64,000 nucleotides of DNA, from the NCBI RefSeq assembly GCF_000003815.2, contig NC_049986.1, forward strand, positions 22,316,030 to 22,380,029. The letters run 5' to 3'. The position numbers and the translations under genes were made by a program. Each line of letters opens with the position of its first letter. The first letter of the stretch is position 1. The DNA is from Branchiostoma floridae (taxonomy: Eukaryota; Chordata; Leptocardii; Amphioxiformes; Branchiostomatidae). A model generated the notes under the pieces. It made no database searches. It was given only the letters and a program-made list of their open reading frames with translations, and was not told the origin of the DNA. Positions 3,001 to 63,908 of the stretch are shown piece by piece.

Positions 3001-6000
3001 GGGGGGTTGTTACATCAACATTCGCATCCAAATCGACAAAATGACTAAGAGGAATAAAAAAAGGTTATTCCTCTATAGATACAAGCGAGTAATACTTCTT
3101 GTACATCTGGAACTATTACACACATGTATATACATTCGCTGAGGTTCGTAGATACACTGTAGTTCATATTGACTAAAACGTTTAGAAACTCTTATTGCTG
3201 TGTTGAAATGTTTTATGATTGTCCTTTTCTCTTTCTGGCAGATGTCATCATCCCACAGACCCTGGACTGTGTCATCGCTAACTGCGGAGACATTTCGGTG
3301 AGTATCTCAGTATGTCAACACCAGTCATCAATTTGCATACTCACTGTATAAGCCTAATCTCCATTCAGATGCTTCAAGAATACTAGTAAGTAGCGATACA
3401 AGAAGGATGACTGGTCAAGAAAACCTACGCGAGACAATCTTCCATGCCGACATGGTTGGATATTAGGATTAGCCATCGCCGTATTTTCTTGATAAAAATG
3501 ATGACGGTCTGAAATGATAATTCACCTCTTCCGTTCACAGACGCCAACACACGGTGACGTCACCTGTACAGGTACGACGTACGGTGAGACGTGCCATCTC
3601 ACCTGTCATGACGGTTACGAACGGCTGACCCGAGACAACTTCACCTGCCAGGTTTACAGAAACAAAGCCACCTGGAGTGGGGAACCAGAGTGCATTCCAG
3701 GTGACATGGCATACATTACTGGGACAATGATATACTGTTATGGTACATATATGATTTCTCAAAAAGAATATTCCCTTACTGTACACAACACATTGTGTCT
3801 TAGTCTACAATATGTAGATGAGGACGAGATAGTACAACATATTATATATCATGCCATGGGTAAGAGGCACAGCATTTCAGATACTTTTTAGAAAATGAAG
3901 AATGCGTTCAATATTTTCCATCAGTGAATTGTAGAGCTCCTCCCGAGTTCCCCAACACCGCCCTCCAGTGCGCCAGCGGACACACCTACGGGAACACCTG
4001 CGGAGTCACCTGTGCGGACAGGTACAACAGAACGAACCTCCAGATCGTGACTTGTCACAGTACCGGCAACTGGAGCTTACAGCTAGGTGGTAAGCCCAAG
4101 GCATGCCGTTGCTTGCGGACATTTTCCTCATACAGTCAATGTTTTTTGCAATTGTTATTGCGAATAATCCATGACGTTTGTACAAACATACAGTGATTTT
4201 CATGATGCTGTCAAACTCAGGATACGGATTGTAGAATTTCCCTGGACAGTGAAACTTCTTATTACTAACAAACCTTTTTATACTGCTGATGGGATCCCTG
4301 GAACGAAAGAGATTTCTTTACGTAAATGAGATATAATCCTACCATTTCCCTGGACAGTGAAACTTCTTATTACTAACAAACCTTTTTATACTGCCGATAG
4401 GTTCCCTGGAACGAAAGAGATTTCTTTACGTAAATGAGATATAATTCTACCATCATTGCCTTCTCATTGTGGTTAAGATGAAAGAAGCCTGATGTACATT
4501 TGCCTTTGTTATTCCAGCGCTCCAGCCAGTTGTTGGTGGCCCAGATCTGTTCTGTCAAAAGAAGAACTGCGGCTATCTTTCTGTACGTAGTCTTGTGTTT
4601 TGTCAGTAACTTTTGTTACATGTATAACACTTTCATACATTACTGCTATTCACACAGACTTTAACGTTTATTGGCCCCTTAGCCAGATGTGAGGTACTTA
4701 CTATAAATTGTCCATCTATCACCACAGTAAGATCACAATAAGAAAAGCAGCATATGCTACTACTATGATTTCAACCCAGTTACATTGCTTCTACCCACAA
4801 CGATTAAATGATAGGCTCGTGACGTTATCGCCACTCTAGCATCGCCAAACATTAAAGAAAAAACTATGAAATTATTGAGAATTTATGTGTGGAAATCGCA
4901 CCACTGTTTCCTCTCAATGAACAGACCCCTGCCCACGGCAGCCTGACGTGCAGCGGCACCAGGTACCAGGACTCCTGCCGCCTGACGTGTGAGCCGGGCT
5001 ACAAAGTTGCCAACGAGAGCGGCCATCTTCTCCACAGTCTCTACAACTTCAGGTGCACGGCAAGTGGGCAATGGAACAACAAGCCAAGGTGAGGGAGTAG
5101 TTTTTCCCATGTAAATTTGTCTTTGGAAGCAAACATGCACAAAGCTTTTTGCACATCGATATATGAACCGACTGCATAGAAGACGTTGAACGTTTTGCTT
5201 CTATTGATTCTCGCGATCGGGTGGTCACGAAAGTATCAAATTACCATTCTTGTCTGGCTAGTATCCTGGACTATCAGTCAACGAACACGAATATCAATGT
5301 ATGGAATACCGATCAAAATGCCAATTTCATTTCTGAACGGTACTCGCTCTGCAGTTGTGTCCCATCTGACTTCTGCCGGCTCGGGCTGCACGACTGCCAC
5401 CCTGAGCACGGGCTCTGCAGCCTGACGGGTCACCAGGCCTTCAGCTGCCGCTGCCGGGTCGGCACGGTCGGGGACGGGACGCACTGTGAAAGGACCTCCT
5501 GTCCGGATTTTCCGGTAAGTAGCAATTGCCCCTTCCCCCCTTAAAAAGATAAAGACTGGGGAAATTAGACAGGTTTTATTTATCTTTTACCCGCAACTAC
5601 AAACAGAAACTTGACTCGCTTTCGATCGAGTGGCAACAGCAAAATGTTCTGATTATGTCGGAAGGCTTGAATCTGTAGATGACCAGAATGATGTATGATT
5701 TGCTATATGTCTATAACAAAAAGAAATACCAAGCGTTTTCAATAACAGGTAGCAATCTTGGATCTATGCACTCGACCATCATGGCGGCTAAACCTTTTTG
5801 TAAGCTATGACGTAAACACGCTATACCAAATAACCTATGTGTCTCTCACTGCCGCATCTCCACAGTTCGCTGAACCGGAGAACGGCTTCTTCTCCTGTTC
5901 TATCCCGACATCCTCTGCTGCTGACACCTGCCAATCAGCTGTCAGCACAAAGGCGGAGTACGAAGTTACCTGTGTGCTCCACTGTAACCATGGTTACGAC

Positions 6001-15585: not shown

Positions 15586-15775
15586 TACTCTCCAAGCAGA
15601 GGTTAGGCGCCGACTGTTTATTTTTTAAAAACTTTTTTAGGTGTTTTTATCGGGCTTTCTATTTTGTACCATATTCTTGATGTCTCGTGTTAGGTCACAA
15701 AATGGAAAGCTCGATGAAGACGCCTAAAAAAGGTAAAAAAAAAACGGAGCCGAACCTCTGTCAAGTTGGAGAGTA
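15586..15775. mobile_element. MULE-like MITE
   Basis: A 190-bp foldback with ends TACTCTCCAAGCAGAGG and its near inverse complement. Long imperfect arms include ATCGGGCTTTCTATTTTGT against ACAAAATGGAAAGCTCGAT. Flanks are TGTTTGCGC (15577-15585) and TGTTTGTGC (15776-15784), a 9-bp target duplication with one mismatch. It has no coding capacity. Same family as the copies at 43003 and 62256. Confidence 0.8.
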
Positions 15776-50200: not shown

Positions 50201-53200
50201 CGGCAGGAGTCCTGGTACCTGGTCCCGCTGCACGTCAGGCTGCCGTGGGCAGGGGGCTGTGTGATCGGAAATATGTAGTCTTCATTGTCCTTTGCGACGT
50301 TTTCAACGCTTGAAGAAACTGGTAGTTCCAGAGCAGAACCCTATAGGGACCAAAACTACACAACTTTTTCCTTGCATCAAAAGCTATTTACCACCAAAAT
50401 ATCAAGACCCAAGAACACAGCATGTTCGGGACAAAAGATCCAAAACCCAAAAGATATGTTGCAGTACCAAGGTCACATACCAGGGGCCCCAAATCGACCT
50501 TGACCTTTGTGTTGCTAACTCCTATCAACATACCAAATATTATAACAATCCATCCAGAGGTTCTAAAGTTATACTGACCACAAATATCCGGAAACGCATG
50601 CCCACAGAAAGACAGACACACCAAAAACTATACCTCCAATTTTCATGGAGGTAATTATCGTCAATGAAAACGAACGCATTTGGCTGCTATTGTGCAAGCT
50701 TAGACGAGCTTTAGGGTACGTACAGGGAGTCTGGCACAGTCCTTCCTCTGACAGAACAGATCTGGTCCACCAACAACTGGCTGGAGCGCTAAAATACACA
50801 ACATATCATTAGAAACATCTTTTGAAGTACTACGTATACAGCGAAAAGACATTGACCCTGCACTATAAAATATAGCTAGCTGTAGGGGGATCGTAGAAGT
50901 CATAAAGCTTTTGCTGATACGACCTGTGCTATCTTAAAGTCTTTTAAGCAGAAAAGGTCGTTGGAAAACCATATGTGCTACCTTCCTAATCTCCAAGCAG
51001 ATTCCTCCGGTGGCATTAAAACAGTAACATAAGCTGGGGCAAATTATCCTCCTTTGCCGGCTAATTCCTTCCCCAGCTTATGTTACTGTTTTAATGCCAC
51101 AGTATTAATCTGCTTGGAGATTACTACCTTCCGCCTGTAGGCTCCAGTTGCCGGTACTGTGACAGGTGACCCTCTGGTGGTTCGTTCCTTCGTACCCGTC
51201 CGCACAGGTGACTCCGCAGGTGTTCCCGTAGGTGCGTCCGCTGGCGCGCTGGATGGTGGTGTGGGGGAACTCGGGAGGGGTTCCACAACTCACTGTTGGA
51301 AAATATTGAACGCATTCTTCGTTTTCTAAAGAAGTATCCGAAATGCTGTGCCTCTTACCCATGGCATGATATATAATATGTTGTACTATCTTGTCCTCAT
51401 CTACATTGTAGACTAAGAGAAATGCGTTGTGTAGAGTAAGGGAATATTCTTTTTGAGAAATCATATATGTACCATAACAGTATATCATTGTTATGGTACA
51501 CGTTTACAGACAAAAAGAAAACTACTCTCCTTTAAAAGTCGCAAAACTCACACATAACAAAAAACTGGGATCTTTCGTCTTCCACTGTCTCAGAAAAAGA
51601 AGTCAAACCCAATAACTTATACTTATTATACTTTTTACCATTATTTGTCTGTCATTTGTTTGTCAATTACAATTAGCCCTTGTGCAGGAATTTGCAATAA
51701 ACTTATTAATGTCCCGGAAATGTATGCCATGTCACCTGGAATACACTCTGGTTCCCCACTCCAGGTGGGTTTGTCTCCGTGTACCTGGCAGGTGAAGTTG
51801 TCTCGGCTCAGCCGTTCGTACCCGTCATGACAGGTGAGATGGCACGTCTCACCGTACGTCGTACCTGTACACCTGACGTCACCGTGTGCGGGCGTCTGTG
51901 TGCAGAGGAGGTGAGTGAAATGTTTTCAACTGTCTGGATTTCTTAGTCTCTACCAGACTTCCGACTGGCCGAATAGTAATAGGGGGGCTTTTGCCAAGTT
52001 CGGAATAAAAGTCTAGTCGGAGTTAATTGACCTAGGAGTGAACTGTTCGGCCACTAGCTGGATAGACTGCGAAAGACTGACTGAAAATCCAAATTTATTT
52101 GTCCCTATTTGTCCAAATTCTTTTTTTTTGTCATCCAGCTGACACATCTGCTTAGAGACTAAGGATATTTCTACTCATGAATTGTAACAGACTGAGGTAG
52201 TAAACTGACTCAATGCACATTCGTTAGATCAATATATTGATGACGAAAATATACCAATGTAGCACATTAGCGGGCAATGTAGCAGAACTGAAATAACCAC
52301 CAGAGGATGAGTGTGCATGAGTGGTAATCAGCGGCGAATCTACCAAAAGCCAGTCAGGGGTTAAGCTGGCCAAGGCGTGTTCTGAGCCCCTCATTGGCCA
52401 GCTTAATTCCTTATGCCACCGGTTGATCTGCGTGGAGATCACATGAATCAAAGATACTCACCGAAATGATCCCACAGTCAGCAATGACACAAGCCAGAGT
52501 CTGTGGGATGACGATATCTGTCAAAGAAACAGTCTGATATTTCATTTCACAATAGCGTTGAGACAAAGTCGACGTTGTAATATTCTTAATTATCATGTTA
52601 CCTTCACAGAAGGGAACATGTCTGTTTTTGCTTTGTTTCTTCTTCTTCTCCGCGCAAATAAGGTCAACGACCTGGACCAGACGGATGTCACCATGGTAAC
52701 CGGTAAAGTAGCAGGCACCATGTGGTGTTCGGTTACATAATATAGCAAATGTCAGATCTAGAAGGGCTCGGGTCACTACATTTAGAAATGTGTTCAAATA
52801 AGAATGAACAAAACAGTTGCCAGTCACCTTCGACTACATTCTGTATTTGCTTGCAAATATTACCTTTCTAGTTCAATAATAACTTTGATGCATATTCTTT
52901 CCCGAGGGGGATAAATGAAGAAGAGTCCAAATATGGTGTAATGGACATTAATGAAATGAAAATTATCATGAAGAAGATCTTTATGTATAATCGTATTCGT
53001 ATGTACTCTGGGATACTAAATCTATATGTTTTTCCTATTCCTTGTGGCCAGACGAAGACAATGTGGCACTGCACTCCAGTTAGTAACTTATATCACAGTG
53101 GCACATACACATTACAGACAGTAGGTAAAGTTAGTCTTTTCTTACTACATTCAATATGACTTAAAAGCCTAATGCTGAGGAAAGTAGATGACGTGTTTAT

Positions 53201-62138: not shown

Positions 62139-63908
62139 ATTGGTGACACCACGGATGGCAACAAAGGAAGTGAGGAATACACTTCAGAGGACGCCGTACA
62201 GCCACAGGACAACTCTGATGACCTGTAAGTAACGGGAGTTTATGCCTGCCAAGTCTACTCTTCAAGCAGAGGTTAGGCTCCGGTTGTTTTTTTAACGTTT
62301 TTTTAGTCGTTTTTATCGGGCTTTCTATCTTTTTATTATATCTTGCTGTGTCAAAACATTAGGCCGGACACACACACACAAAAAAGACAAAATAGAAAGC
62401 CCGATAAAAACGACTAAAAAAAAACAGCCGGAGCCTAACCTCTGCTTGGAGAGTATGCCAAGTCATGCTAAGGCTAACGTCACAATTCTAAACGGGGACC
62501 CGGCCGGACTGTTTGTGGAAACAAAATTAGAAATATTTATGGTAATATACTCAAATAATGTCCACGATTATTCTCTTTACCTCTTGTGTCACATTTCCAA
62601 ACCACGGCCCACCCAGGCAGCTGTCGAGGACAAAAAGGGAGATATAAAAGACATAAACTACACAGGGTGCAAAGTTAACAGTCTGAGCGTTATTTGTGTA
62701 TAGCCAATCAATTGCTAAACGGATTAACGCACACTTCTGTTAACTGCACGGAATCCCAAACCGGTGCGGTGCAGCTAGATAACTTCGCATTATTGCACCA
62801 GCCGGATAATTGCACCAAATTCACTGGCAAATAGGAAGTGTTATTAAGTGGTTCTACTGTATTCTTACGTATATTTTTTTTTACTTCCACAAAAAGCCCA
62901 ACCGGGTTTCGGTTTGGAAATGTGACAAGCGATGTTGTAATTGTCACTTTCCACCTTGACACTTGTGGATATACCTGAATTGCTCTTATTTACAGATCAT
63001 TTCTTAGCTATAATACTGACACCTTTTATTATAAGTCAGCCGATTTGACCCATTCATCATGCTACTTTTTATCCATATCAGGTGCGTCGCTGTTACAGAG
63101 AAGGGGCCGTCGTGCGAGGAAGAAAACTCCCTGTCCGAAGAAATCAAACACGGTGTAGCTGTTGCTTCAAGGGAGAAAAGGGTAACTGTACATTTTTAAC
63201 CTTATAGATATGTACATGCTGGATGCAAAGCGTACTATATGTGATGATGATGATACTATATGAGACTATTTGTAAGCTGCGCTTAATTCACTCACCATCT
63301 GTGTGGTGGATTCTTAAAGGCTTTGATAGCTTAGTGTTTATATCCTCGTCACATGTAACGAAAATCGATCGGACGACGCGTCTGCGAGCTTTAGATTACA
63401 AGGAGGCATGGCCCTGATACCGACGAAGAAATGACAGAGTTCCCCCTTCCCGTATAGGTCATGCCTTCTCGTAATGTAGAGCTCGCAGACTCGACGTCCG
63501 ATCGATTTTCGCTTCATGTGACGGGGTTCAATAACATCTCAGTCAGACATACATATACAGATAGGGAATCTGTAGGACAAGAGGCGTGATCTCTGTTTGT
63601 CAGACCAAGTGCACGTCTGGTTTAGAAGATTCGCGACAAAACGTACGTTTGTGCTGACCCGTTGTTCCTCTTGCAGGTACCACTCAGAAGGCAGCCGAGC
63701 TGTGACTCCCTCTTCACCGGGAAGCACCTGAAGCCCGCCGGCGTCTGGAGGCCGTATGGCCCGCCGCTGTACGGGTACGGCTCCGCCCTGAATCCGCCGC
63801 GCAGGAAAGGGCCGGACACGCTGGTCATCCTCGCCGCCATCTTCTACTGCCTGGCCGCCCTGACTGCTGTGGTCTTCGCTGTGCTGTTCAAAACCAACGT
63901 CGTGACAT
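62139..63908 (+). CDS. Type II transmembrane lectin family, paralogue 3 (3' part outside window)
   Basis: Exons 62139-62224, 63082-63181 and 63677-63908 match exons 2-4 of copy 2 in phase (0-2, 2-0, 0-1). They encode IGDTTDGNKGSEEYTSEDA, then CVAVTEKGPSCEEENS with SREKR, then the juxtamembrane and helix exon VPLRRQPSCDSLFTGKHLKP to AVLFKTNVVT. All domains beyond the membrane helix lie right of 64000. Orientation is opposite to copy 2. Confidence 0.82.
62256..62455. mobile_element. MULE-like MITE in intron of paralogue 3
   Basis: 200-bp foldback with ends TACTCTTCAAGCAGAGG and CCTCTGCTTGGAGAGTA. Perfect 9-bp duplication TGCCAAGTC (62247-62255 and 62456-62464). The paralogous intron of copy 2 has the unoccupied site TGTCAAGTC (minus strand of 57411-57419). 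Confidence 0.9.
62466..62937. mobile_element. Expanded MITE with ACGTCACA / TGTGACAAGCGATG ends
   Basis: Left CTAACGTCACAATTCTAAAC, right GGTTTGGAAATGTGACAAGC. The interior has further CACATTTCCAAACC and CAACCGGGTTTCGG pieces, suggesting nested copies. Same element as 57284-57395. Confidence 0.6.
63348..63522. repeat. Hairpin in the last visible intron of paralogue 3
   Basis: Arms of about 70 bp: GTCACATGTAACGAAAATCG, ATCGGACGACG, TCTGCGAGCT pair with AGCTCGCAGA, CGACGTCCGAT, CGATTTTCGCTTCATGTGAC. Likely another MITE; no target duplication identified. Confidence 0.7.

Follow-up and report, generated by a model that had tools for sequence, protein, structure and literature searches.

A MITE-like element appears to have been inserted into the splice donor of a Sushi exon in an ancestor of two amphioxus genes. 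The copy of the donor that now lies next to the exon is probably the one in use, the copy on the far side of the element having since decayed. The analysis is based on a window of 64,000 nucleotides of the Branchiostoma floridae assembly (contig NC_049986.1, positions 22,316,030 to 22,380,029), together with paralogs of the exon found throughout the same assembly. The gene in the window is referred to as copy 2, and the second gene that carries the insertion as copy 3. The initial annotation proposed that the donor GGAAG/GTAG (the slash marks the exon-intron boundary) was doubled by the 9-bp target duplication of a MITE-like insertion. The sequence supports this proposal: GGAAG/GTAG is found beside the exon, followed by the element and then by a second GGAAG/GTAG. 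As an example of how a transposon within a splice site may be tolerated the locus is a clean one, with the target duplication retaining one donor. Furthermore, with 14 uninterrupted and two inserted paralogs in one assembly, the sequence itself records the steps that followed insertion: the near donor lost its +5 G and the far donor decayed.

The element is located at positions 50987-51123 of the window (no strand assigned) and consists of an inverted repeat that fills all 137 bp between two 9-mers. Its 53-nt arms (50987-51039 and 51071-51123) are 92% complementary and its ends read TAATCTCC...GGAGATTA. The hairpin had been described as flanked on both sides by a single 9-mer, and this was confirmed by two perfect copies of CTACCTTCC starting at 51124 and 50978, the only two positions at which this sequence occurs on the plus strand of the whole window; its reverse complement, GGAAGGTAG, has no occurrence on that strand. 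Read on the gene strand, the near copy of the target duplication (51124-51132, minus strand) is GGAAG/GTAG with its GT at 51127-51126 and with TA, derived from the element, at +5 and +6. The far copy (50978-50986, minus strand) has its donor GT at 50981-50980 and reads GTAGCA, giving a C at +5. The predicted RNA fold of 195 nt around the element has an energy of -96 kcal/mol, which was equalled by none of 200 dinucleotide shuffles. Similar elements with TAnTCTCCAAGCAGA-like ends are seen elsewhere in the window at 1315-1426 and 15586-15775, each with 8/9 agreement between the nine-base flanks, and at 62256-62455 (9/9).

We then searched for the element family in the assembly from which the window comes, 513 Mb in 431 contigs. 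The first pass gave 723 candidate places, of which 40 were scored, giving 81 match rows; since the element is a palindrome, many places are counted on both strands. Leaving out 12 of the 40 (nine partial and three weaker full places), 28 family copies were examined for flanking duplications. These include the two inserted loci studied here (L001 and L003), and three others (L055, L056 and L059) have the same target duplication and are possibly not independent. The flanks matched at 9/9 positions in 18 of the 28 copies, at 8/9 in one, at 7/9 in five and at 4/9 or fewer in four, whereas control flanks offset by 30 bases gave a maximum of 5/9, reached by only two of the 28. Hence the flanking duplication is not a chance repeat. 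Taken position by position, the two flanks were equal in 22 to 25 of the 28 copies over the nine positions and in 9/28 at the tenth. The element thus shows several features of a MITE: a short size with terminal inverted repeats, many similar copies in the genome (the 723 candidates) and a target site duplication of fixed length, 9 bp, exact in the 18 copies given above. The Mutator-like superfamily is compatible with a 9-bp target duplication and the family fits it in this respect, although a length of 9 bp alone is not specific for that superfamily. The same data bear on whether the flanking 9-mers could be an artefact of assembly or a chance repeat. The window does contain gaps elsewhere, but the insertion site itself is free of N bases, 9-bp duplications are typical of the family, and the identical insertion is present at a second, separate locus (copy 3). 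We consider that an artefact has next to no chance of being the explanation.

The 165-nt Sushi (CCP) exon (51128-51292, minus strand) is of phase 1 at both ends, has an open reading frame and a length divisible by three, and has its donor boundary at 51128. The following exon (50724-50788, minus strand) encodes the end of the same Sushi module, and the two exons together give a Pfam Sushi match with an E value of 1.9e-7. Sixteen copies of the 165-nt exon were identified in the assembly, all 16 candidates having been scored. A GT is present at the homologous exon end in 16/16, in L036 after a 1-nt shift to allow for a deletion in the exon, with the exon end extrapolated for those copies whose match ended before base 165. 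The exon end at 51128 is therefore real, and the right-hand copy of the 9-mer does span it, as had been suggested. The 280 kb that were scanned on contig C8 contain seven copies of the exon, in both orientations and spread over about 153 kb. The region C8:22317000-22477000 (window positions 1000-56500 and onward to L019) holds the cluster to which the gene belongs, in which Sushi, C-type lectin and EGF-like parts occur; the EGF-like match is below Pfam's cut-off. L036 (C15:10037761-10037924), with its 1-nt deletion and an internal stop, probably represents a damaged copy or a mistake in the assembly.

The element is absent from 14 of the 16 exon copies and present in copies 2 and 3. The donors of the 14 uninterrupted paralogs read GTAGGG, GTAGGA, GTAAGA, GTAAGC, GTATGG, GTACGA or GTACGT, with a G at +5 in every case. 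One of them, L034, contains the uninterrupted 9-mer GGAAGGTAG followed by GG, which corresponds to a view of the empty site. In copy 2, the remainder of the host intron (50789-50977, minus strand) starts with 60 nt that align with the intron starts of some uninterrupted paralogs. The match of these 60 nt, which directly follow the far copy, is clear for L033 and L034, where 0/500 shuffles were as good. It is weak for L045 (2/500), L036 (8/500) and L035 (11/500), weaker still for L043 (23/500) and L041 (46/500), and at chance level for the other seven of the 14 paralogs (at least 120/500 shuffles as good). From the paralog donors, the uninterrupted 9-mer of L034 and the intron-start matches of L033 and L034, we conclude that the target of the transposon, as judged by these alignments, is the donor itself, the element being placed between intron positions +4 and +5. 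The empty site can accordingly be shown by L034 and L033.

The initial annotation had used copy 1 of the exon (3925-4089, plus strand), which is without the element, to argue that the MITE is younger than the gene duplication. Copy 1 proved to be a poor comparator and was rejected for this purpose. Its intron aligned with that of copy 2 no better than shuffled sequences (64/300 as good, and 43/300 when the last 20 nt were removed), while a positive control, the upstream intron of copy 1 against that of copy 2, gave a strong alignment (0/300). Furthermore, copy 1 has a different exon end, CTAGGTG/GTAAGC, and L039 is the only other copy with this type of donor and last seven exon bases. Copy 1 is therefore unable to show the empty site. 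The dating that was drawn from it is nevertheless right in outline, as 14/16 paralogs lack the element. Given that copies 2 and 3 alone among the 16 carry it, a single insertion in their common ancestor, on the branch leading to these two copies and before their split, is the simplest placement. Several other differences were seen between these genes. In copy 1 and L039 the exon ends and the intron begins differently, with CTAGGTG/GTAAGCCC (window 4083-4517), and the copy 1 intron contains a 110-bp tandem duplication (4236-4345 and 4344-4453). The preceding intron of copy 2 is about 212 bp longer than that of copy 1 (51492-51703), and copy 3 has at least 51492-51592 of this extra sequence.

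The copy 3 exon (C8:22444090-22444254) is located about 77 kb from copy 2 in the opposite orientation and carries the same element in the same place. Copies 2 and 3 group together in the exon tree with 97/97 support, in a tree where 10 of the 13 inner forks are unresolved and the bootstrap is not settled. Ten of the 12 exon segments of copy 3 gave gap-free alignments with copy 2 and contained no stops (dN 0.036, dS 0.080 over 621 codons); the other two are gapped and lie outside this dN/dS figure, and no stop is seen in their printed reading. The near donor of copy 3 is intact, with the intron starting at 22444255. In the far copy a 12-nt deletion took out the GTAG; a GT survives where the deletion was closed, AAG/GTTTTC, but it is very poor, with a score of -4.46 on the splice matrix described below. 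If copy 3 is expressed with this exon included, the near donor would be by far the better candidate. The element itself (positions 1510-1659 of L003) is 150 bp in copy 3, 13 more than in copy 2, and one of its arms is, in its inner part, closer in sequence to the opposite arm than is seen in copy 2, possibly as a result of hairpin-templated change.

The two donor copies of copy 2 had been regarded as equivalent, and in this respect our data lead to a different conclusion. The donors do share their first four intron bases, and the +5 G is missing in both. Their scores are also similar: using a matrix of human splice-site frequencies, the scores of which rank sites and do not measure them, we obtained -0.35 for the near donor and 0.11 for the far donor, with the 14 uninterrupted paralogs ranging from 2.99 to 5.87. 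The U1 duplex energies are -6.3 (near) and -6.2 (far), within a range of -0.7 to -11.2 across the tabulated sites. The predicted consequences of their use, however, are very different. Splicing at the near donor gives an exon equal in length to 14 of the 15 other copies, L036 being one base shorter, and the phase of the following exon fits the near donor and not the far one. Splicing at the far donor would lengthen the exon by 146 nt and change the frame downstream, and translation would run into an in-frame TAA inside the element (51105-51107, minus strand). This codon would be met whenever the near donor is unused, and intron retention would lead to the same TAA at 51107-51105. The far product would be frameshifted and terminated, the far donor is without the +5 G found in 14/14 uninterrupted paralogs, and copy 3 no longer has the far GTAG; on these grounds the two donors cannot be called equivalent.

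These observations also bear on the proposal of the initial annotation that both donors are used, yielding a normal and a truncated protein. It draws on the identical first four intron bases, on matrix and U1 scores that differ little between the donors, and on the prediction that the far donor is the easier to open. In the predicted fold the +5 and +6 bases of the near donor form the first pairs of the hairpin stem, and the opening costs at three flank lengths were 3.87, 4.73 and 4.49 kcal/mol for the near donor and 2.52, 2.50 and 4.16 kcal/mol for the far donor, the far donor being the cheaper in 3/3. The opening cost of the empty site ranges from 2.13 to 5.28 kcal/mol, and no reading is based on this comparison of accessibility. 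Against use of both donors are the frameshift and TAA of the far product, the C at the far +5 position and the absence of the far GTAG from copy 3, and we regard it as quite improbable. Most likely the near donor makes the normal exon, despite the +5 G that was lost through the insertion. Its low matrix score, the absent +5 G, the pairing of its +5 and +6 bases in the stem and its higher opening cost are nevertheless signs of a donor that has been weakened. Within the exon there is a further GT at 51195 (CGG/GTACGA) with a matrix score of 2.18, above that of the near donor; its use would result in the loss of 68 nt and a shifted frame.

A weakened donor could also mean that the exon is often skipped, resulting in a shorter protein. 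Skipping of a 165-nt exon of phase 1-1 would keep the frame and remove most of one Sushi module, and the +5 G common to all 14 uninterrupted paralogs is found in neither donor of copy 2. On the human-frequency matrix the near donor is the third lowest of 26 tabulated sites, for which donors were assigned by eye. Two donors of the gene pair (5837 c1 and 4518 c1) score lower still, however, the U1 duplex energy of the near donor is not extreme in the range given above, and the exon is still open in copies 2 and 3. Substitutions within the exon add to the case for skipping, with dN at or above dS both for copies 2 and 3 (dN 0.041, dS 0.028) and for copies 1 and 2 (dN 0.135, dS 0.127), although these values come from few sites and the second comparison includes copy 1's own changes. 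In addition, exon residue 15 is an Arg in copy 2 and a Cys in all 15 other exon copies, suggesting that the Sushi module of the copy 2 gene may be impaired. The exon dN/dS and the lost Cys leave room for skipping or relaxed selection, and we view frequent skipping as possible, if on balance doubtful.

The same lost Cys and an exon dN/dS at or above about 1 could be taken to indicate that this gene copy is a pseudogene, or that its Sushi module is free of selection, and the gene-wide dN/dS of about 0.45 between copies 2 and 3 might be read in the same way. In contrast, the copy 3 segments are without a stop, and over nine exon segments (556 codons) copies 1 and 2 differ with a dN of 0.078 against a dS of 0.192, a ratio of about 0.41. 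The copy 2 segments were selected for being open and so their openness is no independent test. Overall we consider a pseudogene unlikely.

Taken together, the data are best explained by a model in which a non-autonomous MITE-like transposon that makes a 9-bp target duplication entered the Sushi exon donor. The near copy would most likely be the current donor, so that the element is spliced out along with the rest of the intron and leaves no mark on the mRNA. As deduced from the paralogs, the far copy probably kept the original downstream bases at the time of insertion, including the +5 G, and may at first have been the stronger donor, with a truncated product. It would then have decayed, through the C at +5 in copy 2 and the 12-nt deletion in copy 3. 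The price of the insertion would be a near donor weakened by the lack of a +5 G, presumably adequate, but with the in-frame exon possibly skipped in some transcripts. A more speculative extension, which rests on two loci and which we think rather unlikely, is that selection, and not mere drift, disabled the stronger far donor or, more boldly, that the far AG/GT was once a recursive splice site through which the element was removed without trace. As an acceptor the far AG scores -5.6 (human matrix), a value equalled or beaten by 40% of the AGs in the window. If selection did act against the far donor, copies 2 and 3 would preserve in nature the traces of how two donors arising from one target duplication competed.

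Among the literature matches listed, no title or abstract opening names a MITE that copies a splice donor in amphioxus, and such a case may still be in print. Maize Ds and similar insertions in or next to exons are spliced from the pre-mRNA via sites at their borders. The amphioxus element would be analogous, as a transposon beside an exon that the splicing machinery takes out at sites on its borders, the difference being that the amphioxus gene appears to retain its original donor, copied by the target duplication. There is also some likeness to stwintrons and recursive splice sites, as the far GGAAG/GTAG contains both an AG and a GT and removal of the element to restore an outer donor is formally possible; the far AG is, however, a weak acceptor and copy 3 is without the far GTAG. 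MITEs such as LanceleTn have been described in amphioxus, one of them, according to a second-hand report, in a gained intron of PRHOXNB (PMC5802833). The likeness, a MITE within an intron of an amphioxus gene, is one of description and not of sequence. A further parallel is offered by the introners, described as DNA-transposon-like elements that create introns, some families of which take their 5' splice site from the target duplication (PMC9860276). As far as that description goes, the copy 2 element resembles them in being short and in having terminal inverted repeats and a target site duplication. The donor sequence also lies inside the duplicated target, and would correspond to the splice site of those families if it is the one used in the RNA. 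Introners, however, make a new intron within an exon, whereas a GT donor sequence is already present in all 14 uninterrupted paralogs, and the amphioxus element would instead have landed at the donor of an intron that was already there, with no intron gained.
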